DNA from: Candidatus Woesearchaeota archaeon
GTDB lineage: Archaea; Nanobdellota; Nanobdellia; SCGC-AAA011-G17; PNOQ01
Assembly: GCA_018302135.1 (NCBI GenBank)
Contig: JAGWAE010000005.1
Span: 1-35,553 of the forward strand
Direction: 5' to 3'
Length of the DNA stretch: 35,553 nucleotides
Shown: in pieces, positions 13,459-17,912 of the stretch
Numbering within the stretch: the stretch's first letter is position 1
Layout of the letters: each line of letters opens with the position of its first letter
Position numbers and translations under genes: made by a program
The notes under the pieces: model-generated
The model's database searches: none
The model's input: the letters and a program-made list of their open reading frames with translations, nothing else
Told to the model about the DNA's origin: nothing

Positions 13459-15282
13459 TTATTTCCAGTCTGGTTGGGTTTCGCTTATTCCTGAACTATT
13501 TGTCTTATTTGTTTGATTTGAACCATCTACTTTCATAGTCCATAAATCCCAACTACCATTTATCCATCTGGAGTAAGCTATTTCTGTTCCATCTGGGCTA
13601 AAACATGGATATCTATCTGTTGTTCCTTGTGTTAGTGCTACTTGATTCGAACCATCACTATTCATAATCCATATCTTATCACTTCTTGTGAAAACTATTT
13701 TTGTTCCGTCATTGCTAAAGTTTGGTGCAGAATCCAATAATGAATTATTTGTTAATCTTGTTGGATAGGTTCCATCAACTTTGCAAGATCTTATTTCCCA
13801 ATTATTATCAACATTTGTTGAAAAAACTATTTTATCTCCTGTTTGATTTAAACAAGGTTCTTGCGGGCTTCCGTTTGATACAACTAGTGATTCTAATCCA
13901 GTTGGTAAAAATGTTGTGTATAAATCTCCATCTTTTATGTAAACTATTCTATTCCCTTGCCATCCAAATGAAGGAGAATGACTTCCTTCTGTTGAACTTG
14001 TTATTCCACTAGTTGATCCGTCTGAATATTTAACAACTATTTCTGATTTTCCTCCGATTGTTTTTTCCATTGCGATGCTTCCATCTGAGATATTTACCGA
14101 TGGGTTTGTTCCTGATTCTATTCTTGTTAAATTTGTTCCATTTGATGACATAGAATATGTTTCTAAATCTCTTGTGAAAACTATTTTTTCTTGTGTTGGA
14201 GTTGAACCAATTGTGAATGTTTTATCCGTTCCAGTATCTGTTGTTGAAGTTTTGTTTACATTTGTGTCATCAATTACTTCTATAATTACTCTGTATTGTC
14301 CTTCTGGTAAGTTTGTTAGTGTTTTGGTTAATTGATTTGTTCCTGATGTAGTATACAATTGATTGTTTCTAAATACATTTATTGTATAAAATAAATCTGA
14401 GTTTATTGTTGCACCAAATTTTATTGTTGGATCCGGAATAGGAATTAAATTTTGAAAATAATTTTTTGCATCTTGTCCTTGCCATGATAATATTACATTT
14501 GAGCCAGTTATTTGTGGATTTTTTTGTGTTACTGTTGGTTTGTTGCTTGGCATTAAAACATGGAATGCCTTTGTTGGCAAACCAAATGGAGAAAACCAAT
14601 ATAAGTCCCAATTCGTTTCAGGACTGTAATTTTGTGTTAATATATCTTCTAATGAAATATCTTCACCAATTCCGGAAAGAACTTCATTGATTGGAACTGG
14701 ACCACCAGAAACACTACTTCCTACAAATAATAATGTGTTTACAGCTATTCTGTAAGAATCTCTTAGTTGCTCTCCTGTGAATGTTCCACCATATCTAAAT
14801 GATGATAGTAATAAAGGTTCGTTTAAATTTGGAAGGTAAAAATCCAAAAAATTTCTTAATGCAGTTTTTTCATCCGTTCCTGTTATTTGTCTTAATATAT
14901 AATCTGAATCATTCATATGTTGTAATAATTCTACAACATCTATCTTATCGTTTAAATTTGTGTCAAATCTTGTTATAGGTCTATAGTTATTTCCTGGGAG
15001 AAAAGATAAAACTTCATATCTATTCTCTGGAGAACCATTATTATAAAAAACTTGAACATTTTGAATTGGTTGGTTTGATTGAGAAGCACATTTTACTCTT
15101 AGTTGAGAACCATCATTGTTGAAGGTTGCATACCCATTTTTATCTGTTATACTTGATTGAATTTCTGTGTGTTGTGTTTGTTCTGGTGCAGTTGGATCCG
15201 AAGTTTTGGAACAACCCGAAATTAAACTTGTTGCTAAGATGGTTGATAATACTAAACTTTTCACCCTTTTTTTGAAATTCAT
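13459..15282 (-). CDS. Lipoprotein with dockerin/EF-hand-like motif, fibronectin-like region and C-terminal TolB-like (PD40) beta-propeller
   Basis: MNFKKRVKSLVLSTILATSLISGC lipobox; FDTNLNDKIDVVELLQ; repeats such as PNFSNDGTKIVFTRSDKIWIMNSDGSN and PCFSPDGTEIAYSRWINGSWDLWTMKVDGSN. The first 25 codons of the tracked ORF fall largely in the tRNA-side region and were trimmed. Confidence 0.85.
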   Translation of the reverse strand: MNFKKRVKSLVLSTILATSLISGCSKTSDPTAPEQTQHTEIQSSITDKNGYATFNNDGSQLRVKCASQSNQPIQNVQVFYNNGSPENRYEVLSFLPGNNYRPITRFDTNLNDKIDVVELLQHMNDSDYILRQITGTDEKTALRNFLDFYLPNLNEPLLLSSFRYGGTFTGEQLRDSYRIAVNTLLFVGSSVSGGPVPINEVLSGIGEDISLEDILTQNYSPETNWDLYWFSPFGLPTKAFHVLMPSNKPTVTQKNPQITGSNVILSWQGQDAKNYFQNLIPIPDPTIKFGATINSDLFYTINVFRNNQLYTTSGTNQLTKTLTNLPEGQYRVIIEVIDDTNVNKTSTTDTGTDKTFTIGSTPTQEKIVFTRDLETYSMSSNGTNLTRIESGTNPSVNISDGSIAMEKTIGGKSEIVVKYSDGSTSGITSSTEGSHSPSFGWQGNRIVYIKDGDLYTTFLPTGLESLVVSNGSPQEPCLNQTGDKIVFSTNVDNNWEIRSCKVDGTYPTRLTNNSLLDSAPNFSNDGTKIVFTRSDKIWIMNSDGSNQVALTQGTTDRYPCFSPDGTEIAYSRWINGSWDLWTMKVDGSNQTNKTNSSGISETQPDWK

Positions 15283-15327
15283 AAATTTAGGGGAATGTAA
15301 TCTGTTTTTTAAATATTTTGGAAAAAA

Positions 15328-15430
15328 TGGGAACGGGGGGATTTGAACCCCCAACACCTAGAGCTTCAGTCTAGTGCTCTCCTTAACCGAAGTTTTATGG
15401 TTTTTACTTCTCAGGTTGAGCTACGTTCCC
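15328..15430 (-). tRNA. tRNA-Phe(GAA) containing a 29-nt intron in the D-loop (intron = 15383..15411)
   Basis: Sense strand: GGGAACG TA GCTC AACCTG[AGAAGTAAAAACCATAAAACTTCGGTTAA]GGA GAGC A CTAGA CTGAAGC TCTAG GTGTT GGGGG TTCAAAT CCCCC CGTTCCC A; all stems pair. Confidence 0.93.
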
Positions 15431-15435
15431 GCGTA

Positions 15436-15464
15436 AATAACGTTATTATAGCTTCTTTTTAAAG
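15436..15464 (-). promoter_or_regulatory. Putative tRNA-Phe promoter: TATA-like CTTTAAAAAG plus palindrome AATAACGTTATT
   Basis: TATA-like box 25-34 nt upstream of the tRNA 5' end; perfect 12-bp palindrome at 15436-15447. Confidence 0.5.
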
Positions 15465-15507: not shown

Positions 15508-15527
15508 GCTTTTGAATTTTGAATAAT

Positions 15528-17912
15528 ATGGCTAAAAATTATGATTTCAAAGATGTAGAACATAAATGGAATAAATTCTGGGAAGAAGAAGGAATTTATC
15601 TTTTTGATAATACTTCTAAAAAGAAGACTTATGCTATAGATACACCACCCCCAACTGTTTCTGGGGCAATGCATTTAGGCCATGCATTTTCTTATTCACA
15701 TGAAGATTTTATAGCAAGATATCAAAGAATGAAACAAAAGAATGTATTTTTTCCTTTTGGTACGGATGATAATGGTTTACCTACAGAGAGATTGGTTGAA
15801 AAATTAAAAAGTGTTAAGTCTACTGAAATGGATAGAGAAAAATTTGTAAAATTGTGTCAAGATACAGTGACTGATATAAGGCCTAAATTTATACAAGATT
15901 GGAAAAATATAGGAATGAGTTGTAATTTTAATCAATCTTATTCAACAATTGATAATCATTCTATTAAAACTTCTCAATTATTGTTTATTGATTTGCATAA
16001 AAAAGGATTAGTTTACCAGAAATCTGCACCAACAATGTGGTGCGTTAAATGCCAAACTGCAATTGCTCAAGCAGAATTAGAAGATGAAAATTTTAATTCT
16101 ACGTTTAATGATATTATTTTTAAAGTTGGTAAAAAAGATTTAATAATTGCAACAACAAGACCTGAGTTAATACCTGCTTGTGTTTGTATTTATGTTAATC
16201 CAGATGATAATAGGTATAAAGACATTATTGGTAAAAAAGCAGAAATACCTTTGTTTGAATATAAAGTTCCTATCTTTACAGATGAATCTGTAGATATGCA
16301 AAAAGGTAGTGGTGCGATGATGATTTGTAGTTATGGTGATAAATATGATGTTGAAGCGATAGCTAAAAGAAAATTAGAACCTCGAGTTGTTATTGAAAAA
16401 AATGGGATTTTGAATCATTTTGCAGATAAATACAAAGGAATGAATATTAAAGATGCTAGAAAGGCAATACTTGATGATTTAGAAAAACATTCTTTGTTAA
16501 TTAGTAAAAAACCAATACAACATGTTGTTAATGTGCATGATAAATGTGGAACTGAAATAGAATTTTTGTCTTCTAAACAATGGTTTGTTAAAATATTAGA
16601 AAATAAAAAGAAGTTAATCAAATCTGCAGATAAAATAACATGGTATCCTGAGTTCATGAAAACTAGATATGTTAATTGGGTTGAAGCTTTGGAGTGGGAT
16701 TGGTGTATTTCTAGGCAGAGAGCTTATGGGGTTCCATTTCCGATATGGTATTGTAATAAATGTGGAAAAGAAATATTTGCTGAGGAAAAACAATTACCTT
16801 TGTTTCCATCAAAAGCTAAACCATTGAAAAAATGTAGTTGTGGTTCTGATAATTTTGTGGCTGAGCAAGATGTTATGGATACTTGGGCAACTTCTTCTTT
16901 GTCACCACAAATAGTTTGTAATTTTATTAATAGTGAGGAATATAATATTAATTTTGGAAATGTTTATCCTATGTCGTTAAGACCACAAGCACACGATATT
17001 ATAAGAACTTGGGCGTTTTATACGATAGTCCGTGGATTATATCATCATAATAAAGAACCTTGGGAAAATATTATGATATCTGGGCATGTTCTTGATCCTA
17101 AAGGAAAAAAAATGAGTAAATCTAAAGGTAATGTAGTTGAACCTCAAAAAATTGTTCAAACTTATGGTGCTGATTCTTTAAGATTTTGGGCAGCAAATGC
17201 AACATTGGGCAAAGATCTTTCGTATAAAGAAGAGGATGTTAAGAATGCTTTGAGAACAATAACTAAATTATTGAATGCAAGTAATTTTGCCTTTATGCAT
17301 TTAAATGATTTTAAAAATAAAAAAGTTGAACTGGAAATTATAGATAAAGGAATATTATCTAAGTTTAATGAATTAATAAAAGAATGTACTAAATCATTTG
17401 ATGGTTATGAATATTCTAAATCTAAAATGCTAACTGAAATGTTTTTCTGGAGTCAAGTTTGTGATAATTATTTGGAGATTGCTAAGGATAGATTATATAA
17501 TCCAGATAAGCGTGGAGAGGATTCTAGAAAAAGTGCTCAATACGTTTTGTATCAATTAATGCTAGGAGTTATTAAATTATTTGCTCCGATAATGCCTTAC
17601 ATTACTGAAGAAATATATCAATCTCATTTTGTTAAACTTGAAAAAGATAAAAGTATTCACATTTCCAAATGGCCGGAATATGAAAAAAATTTAAAGGATG
17701 AAATAGCAGAAAAAACTTGGGATAAATTTGTTGAAATATTGTCTTTTGTAAGACAAGAAAAGGCTAAGAAAAATGTGTCTTTGGTTACAGAAGTAAAACT
17801 TATAATAACAAAGCAAGATAAATTATTATTAGCTGAATGTTTGGATGATTTGAAAGCAGTGTGTAAAGCAAAAGAAATAAATTATGGCGATGAAGTAAAG
17901 GTGGAGTTTTGA
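15528..17912 (+). CDS. valS: Valyl-tRNA synthetase
   Basis: DTPPPTVSGAMHLGHAFSYSHEDFIARYQRM, KMSKSKGNVVEPQ, WCISRQRAYGVPFPIWYC. Confidence 0.96.
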   Translation: MAKNYDFKDVEHKWNKFWEEEGIYLFDNTSKKKTYAIDTPPPTVSGAMHLGHAFSYSHEDFIARYQRMKQKNVFFPFGTDDNGLPTERLVEKLKSVKSTEMDREKFVKLCQDTVTDIRPKFIQDWKNIGMSCNFNQSYSTIDNHSIKTSQLLFIDLHKKGLVYQKSAPTMWCVKCQTAIAQAELEDENFNSTFNDIIFKVGKKDLIIATTRPELIPACVCIYVNPDDNRYKDIIGKKAEIPLFEYKVPIFTDESVDMQKGSGAMMICSYGDKYDVEAIAKRKLEPRVVIEKNGILNHFADKYKGMNIKDARKAILDDLEKHSLLISKKPIQHVVNVHDKCGTEIEFLSSKQWFVKILENKKKLIKSADKITWYPEFMKTRYVNWVEALEWDWCISRQRAYGVPFPIWYCNKCGKEIFAEEKQLPLFPSKAKPLKKCSCGSDNFVAEQDVMDTWATSSLSPQIVCNFINSEEYNINFGNVYPMSLRPQAHDIIRTWAFYTIVRGLYHHNKEPWENIMISGHVLDPKGKKMSKSKGNVVEPQKIVQTYGADSLRFWAANATLGKDLSYKEEDVKNALRTITKLLNASNFAFMHLNDFKNKKVELEIIDKGILSKFNELIKECTKSFDGYEYSKSKMLTEMFFWSQVCDNYLEIAKDRLYNPDKRGEDSRKSAQYVLYQLMLGVIKLFAPIMPYITEEIYQSHFVKLEKDKSIHISKWPEYEKNLKDEIAEKTWDKFVEILSFVRQEKAKKNVSLVTEVKLIITKQDKLLLAECLDDLKAVCKAKEINYGDEVKVEF

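Follow-up and report, generated by a model that had tools for sequence, protein, structure and literature searches.

The window analysed here is a stretch of 35,553 nucleotides from a Candidatus Woesearchaeota archaeon, whose draft genome comprises 637 kb in 29 contigs and is 88% complete. On the minus strand of the window, from 15430 (position 1) to 15328 (discriminator A73), lies a tRNA-Phe(GAA) gene. The features of this locus are given below, with the basis of each in brackets.

15519–17912, plus strand: valS-type synthetase gene, the divergent neighbour, whose product we take to be valyl-tRNA synthetase from our own reading of the sequence; it serves as synteny anchor (85% identity over 794 aa to the same-genus locus, L100)
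15456–15463, minus strand: TATA-like box TTTAAAAA, 26–33 nt upstream of the tRNA 5′ end, of putative function (same-genus alignment)
15328–15430, minus strand: tRNA-Phe(GAA) gene, 103 nt unspliced including A73, with no encoded CCA (sequence; ARAGORN on the spliced form; partial Rfam match)
15412–15430, minus strand: 5′ exon, positions 1–18, GGGAACGTAGCTCAACCTG (same-genus alignment; ARAGORN on the spliced form)
15418–15420, minus strand: outer helix of the bulge-helix-bulge (BHB), 5′ strand CTC, pairing with GAG at 15379–15381 (BHB scan; fold analysis)
15414–15417, minus strand: BHB central helix, exon strand AACC, pairing with intron GGTT at 15385–15388 (BHB scan; comparison of 16 introns)
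15411–15413, minus strand: 5′ bulge TGA, predicted cut after TG, 15412/15411 (BHB geometry; cut rule from PMC4307357)
15383–15411, minus strand: predicted intron of 29 nt, AGAAGTAAAAACCATAAAACTTCGGTTAA, between positions 18 and 19 (BHB geometry; absent from the same-genus orthologue)
15389–15410, minus strand: intron hairpin, inner helix GAAGT/ACTTC with a 12-nt loop (BHB scan; comparison of 16 introns)
15385–15388, minus strand: BHB central helix, intron strand GGTT (BHB scan; comparison of 16 introns)
15382–15384, minus strand: 3′ bulge AAG, predicted cut after AA, 15383/15382 (BHB geometry)
15328–15382, minus strand: 3′ exon, positions 19–73 (same-genus alignment; ARAGORN on the spliced form)
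15379–15381, minus strand: BHB outer helix, 3′ strand GAG (BHB scan; fold analysis)
15365–15367, minus strand: anticodon GAA (sequence; ARAGORN on the spliced form)
15322–15327, minus strand: T6 run directly after A73, a likely transcription terminator (sequence; T-run also in the same-genus genome)

The longest frame of a lipoprotein-like neighbour gene, 13459–15357, begins at a GTG within the tRNA; translation more probably starts at the ATG of MNFKKRVKS (about 15282).

The acceptor stem (GGGAACG/CGTTCCC), the anticodon stem (CTAGA/TCTAG) and the T-arm (GGGGG/CCCCC) of the tRNA-Phe are formed entirely by Watson-Crick pairs, and the anticodon loop reads CTGAAGC. ARAGORN finds no tRNA in the window and none in the unspliced gene; after excision of the 29 nt it reads a perfect 74-nt tRNA-Phe(gaa). 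The Rfam tRNA model matches the unspliced gene with 29.9 bits, compared with a gathering score of 29, and places its 5′ end wrongly at 15388, within the intron. Hits to Rfam models of other kinds, obtained at a low threshold, are chance matches. A reading of this DNA from its sequence alone had warned that a default tRNA scan might miss or misfold the gene, which holds for both programs.

The 38-nt D-loop contains a complete BHB motif of the strict hBHBh′ type. A scan for outer helices of at least 3 bp, central helices of 4 bp, inner helices of at least 4 bp and 3-nt bulges found this motif once in the whole gene and in none of 20,000 shuffled 38-nt D-loops. The sequence-only reading had described the same arrangement, with helices CTC/GAG, AACC/GGTT and GAAGT/ACTTC and bulges TGA and AAG, and all of its helices and coordinates were verified. 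The outer helix is two bases off the register of the mature D-stem, GCTC/GAGC. EndA cleaves after the second nucleotide of each bulge (PMC4307357), and excision of 15383–15411 by this rule leaves AACCTGGGA.

In a genome of the same genus, tRNA-Phe lacks the intron and likewise lies next to valS, in the same divergent arrangement. Its D-loop region reads TAGCTCAATCTGGGAGAGCACTAGACTGAA, compared with TAGCTCAACCTG joined to GGAGAGCACTAGACTGAA, i.e. TAGCTCAACCTGGGAGAGCACTAGACTGAA, for the predicted spliced product, with one D-loop base differing across the 30-nt junction region. The 29-nt gap is the sole large difference between the two genes, which also differ in the acceptor stem and at a few other bases. 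Both genomes have the upstream block AAAAACTTTAAAAAGAAG, in which the TATA-like box sits, and a T-run after A73. The expectation that removing the 29 nt would yield a normal tRNA is thus borne out by both ARAGORN and the orthologue.

The same boundary is interrupted in other members of the class. Pattern searches that specified exon letters only and left the intron strands unconstrained recovered 15 genomes, including that of the window; a sixteenth (G020, L099), identified by a less stringent anticodon search, carries an extra insertion in the anticodon arm. Together they represent 14 families of the class, all with an intron at the identical 18/19 boundary, though the sameness of their exons is partly demanded by the search pattern. 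The introns are 14–41 nt long and largely unrelated in sequence, and all 16 have the central helix ARCC/GGYT and 3-nt bulges. This helix covaries, being AACC/GGTT in two genomes and AGCC/GGCT in the rest (one A-U/G-C change). Of 64 possible inner-helix positions, 61 are paired; exchanging 3′ halves between introns gives 30.9 ± 4.4, and none of 10,000 exchanges reached 61. In one more genome, the seventeenth (G038, L073), the insert is similar but has a single mismatch in the central helix. The placement between positions 18 and 19, already proposed from the sequence, agrees with the intronless orthologue and with the 15 further genomes, and an intron at this site, with predicted EndA-type cuts after the second bulge nucleotides, is strongly supported by the comparison.

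When the anticodon was left free, the pattern matched tRNA-Phe in 15 of 16 cases, the remaining one reading TAT; this points to a preference of the site for tRNA-Phe, as far as a pattern demanding a Phe-like D-arm can show it. Five of the 16 introns begin their inner helix with GAAG/CTTC, which suggests a common origin. Among the genomes of the window's own family with a readable tRNA-Phe, only the source genome has the 18/19 intron; the intron may be old and often lost, or may have been gained many times. In other genomes of the order (L061, L086, L087, L098), insertions in tRNA-Phe fall elsewhere, between the D-stem and the anticodon loop; within the order this tRNA is therefore interrupted at several sites.

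We conclude that the locus is almost certainly a working gene for tRNA-Phe(GAA) whose D-loop is interrupted between positions 18 and 19 by a 29-nt BHB intron, and we infer that the gene is expressed and its transcript cleaved and ligated. Two pairings would form in the precursor: A14-A15-C16-C17 with the GGUU located towards the 3′ end of the intron, and C11-U12-C13 with G20-A21-G22, a register displaced by two bases from that of the mature D-stem. On its exon side, the central helix would then consist of nothing but the ordinary D-loop bases A14-R15-C16-C17, and the GAG of the outer helix would occupy positions 20–22, as against 22–25 in the mature D-stem; the GAGAGC repeat of the 3′ exon permits both pairings. 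An EndA encoded by one gene, probably an α4 homotetramer, would cleave each 3-nt bulge behind its second nucleotide, RtcB would join the exons, and the D-stem would re-form as GCUC/GAGC, closing the loop AACCUGGGA.

When it is folded in isolation at 37 °C, the precursor does not favour this structure: the BHB form has −31.5 kcal/mol and the minimum −35.9, a gap of 4.4 kcal/mol, and the central pairs have a probability of only about 0.13. In the minimum-energy fold the mature D-stem is retained and CCU pairs with AGG. What supports the BHB is therefore comparison and not thermodynamics, and we left energy-based folding out of the evidence for it; given the gap, the BHB form would have to be picked out by enzyme capture or cotranscriptional folding.

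These energies lend something to a different view of the intron, namely that it is real but presents a relaxed motif, with the mature D-stem kept, and would need a broad-specificity enzyme, as the sequence-only reading had supposed. A fold with the mature D-stem and an intron hairpin is, in isolation, 0.9 kcal/mol better than the BHB. The processing genes of the source genome bear on this. It has one RtcB gene and a single EndA gene (PF01974), a 175-aa frame at a contig end, and a search for a paralogue found none at E ≤ 10, including none of the β-like type. Exactly one EndA gene is present in 17 of 18 genomes checked, and none was found in the other, a 59%-complete intron carrier. By sequence, the closest solved structures are the catalytic subunit of Nanoarchaeum equitans (3iey_A, the best PDB match) and the α4 enzyme of Methanocaldococcus jannaschii. 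The former belongs to a heterotetramer listed as broad (PMC6379350), which again favours the relaxed view, whereas the latter is listed as narrow (PMC6379350). Compared with ARMAN-2, the protein is without the ARMAN-type ASL insertion, the loop that holds Y160-K161, and its ASL region aligns without gaps to 1A79; in a sub-sequence search, the CSL region was not alignable to a crenarchaeal chain. With the size of the M. jannaschii α4 enzyme, one gene of about 175 aa and no second subunit found, EndA is probably an α4 homotetramer, judging from gene number and length.

Relaxed motifs are cut efficiently only by (αβ)2 and ε2 enzymes, and what reviews ascribe to broad specificity is the recognition of relaxed motifs, not the place where a strict one lies (PMC6379350). 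Narrow specificity and a strict motif at a new position do not conflict, so the requirement for a broad-specificity endonuclease falls away, the hBHBh′ here being complete and the one EndA having neither a paralogue nor the ASL insertion. All 16 introns, moreover, keep the 4-bp central helix and the 3-nt bulges, which relaxed recognition would not need. We consequently consider a relaxed motif in this gene unlikely.

Still less probable is that the gene is a decaying pseudogene or a silent copy with a D-loop insertion, the working tRNA-Phe lying in unassembled DNA. The incomplete draft assembly leaves some room for this and for a second tRNA-Phe in its missing part, but no other tRNA with a GAA anticodon was found in the 88%-complete genome. 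Decay is also at odds with the perfectly paired mature stems, the retained TATA-like box and T-run, the orthologue at the same place in the same-genus genome and the recurrence of introns at this boundary in 15 other genomes. Finally, that the 38-nt D-loop is retained in the mature tRNA as an extended arm, as the D-stem and loop hairpin of the minimum-energy fold might suggest, is hardly credible when the inserts differ freely in length and sequence yet preserve the bulges and central helix, and when the excision product is what the same-genus genome encodes directly.

Several other tRNA genes of the source genome are interrupted. Tandem genes for tRNA-Asp(GUC) and tRNA-Lys(UUU) (L092, minus strand, about 394–190; G000 contig C14) contain identical 19-nt T-loop introns, ACAAATAAAATTGTGAAAG, at site 59/60, with a complete BHB in each. 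No copy of this intron occurs in eight genomes of the family, and its identity in the two neighbours suggests recent copying between them. A tRNA-Ile with anticodon UAU has a 28-nt intron at 37/38 (L018, 1501–1603; G000 contig C20); archaea mostly read AUA with a modified CAU anticodon, and tRNA-Ile(UAU) is unusual among them. The tRNA-Lys(CUU) gene (L027, 950–1061, minus strand; G000 contig C3) has two introns, a 23-nt one at 30/31 with a complete BHB and a 14-nt one at 37/38 that lacks an inner helix; 30/31 is also where tRNA-Lys(CUU) is split in N. equitans and Staphylothermus (PMC3218864). One EndA gene is thus found alongside introns with the complete motif in several tRNAs, located in the D-loop, the anticodon stem and the T-loop.

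BHB introns at non-canonical positions of tRNA genes are a known kind, described from Crenarchaeota, Thaumarchaeota and other archaea (PMC4090602; tRNAscan-SE 2.0, PMC8450103). Like these, the intron described here is short, with a strict hBHBh′ and 3-nt bulges, and D-arm sites are known in other tRNAs; the sites named are 20/21, 22/23, 25/26, 29/30, 30/31, 45/46, 53/54, 56/57, 59/60 ‘etc.’, and 18/19 of tRNA-Phe is not among them. The host differs in being a DPANN archaeon with one EndA gene in place of an (αβ)2 enzyme. With the M. jannaschii type, which combines canonical 37/38 introns and an α4 EndA, it shares a single EndA of about 175–180 aa and a strict BHB substrate; yet the intron lies in the D-loop, and a review ties α4 enzymes to the canonical position (PMC4090602). 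N. equitans and Nst1 resemble it as DPANN-type archaea and in the closeness of its EndA to the N. equitans catalytic subunit, but N. equitans has a second, structural EndA subunit and split tRNAs. In the literature on DPANN and Woesearchaeota tRNA introns that we searched, a scope short of GtRNAdb and many subscription papers and therefore no proof of absence, we found no report of an 18/19 intron in tRNA-Phe; what looks new is that this site recurs, with a bias to Phe, in DPANN archaea that have a one-gene EndA.

Beyond this locus, we propose that one-gene, α4-type EndA enzymes of DPANN archaea routinely remove introns at non-canonical sites, provided that the motif is strict, and that 18/19 of tRNA-Phe recurs because the ARCC of the D-loop and the GAGAG repeat of the 3′ exon supply the exon half of the motif in advance. 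We hold this generalization with no firmer than even confidence. If true, it would uncouple the place of an intron from the specificity of the enzyme, two things that reviews connect. The locus itself makes testable the accepted correlation that pairs narrow α4 endonucleases with 37/38 introns only. The patchy presence of introns at one exact site is a ready-made set of data on how introns are gained and lost. Gene finders, moreover, miss or misplace this tRNA-Phe in a group of archaea in which genome reduction makes it tempting to claim that tRNAs are missing: for the nanoarchaeon Nst1 a tRNA-Phe gene was reported missing (PMC3655853), which an unrecognised D-loop intron could explain.
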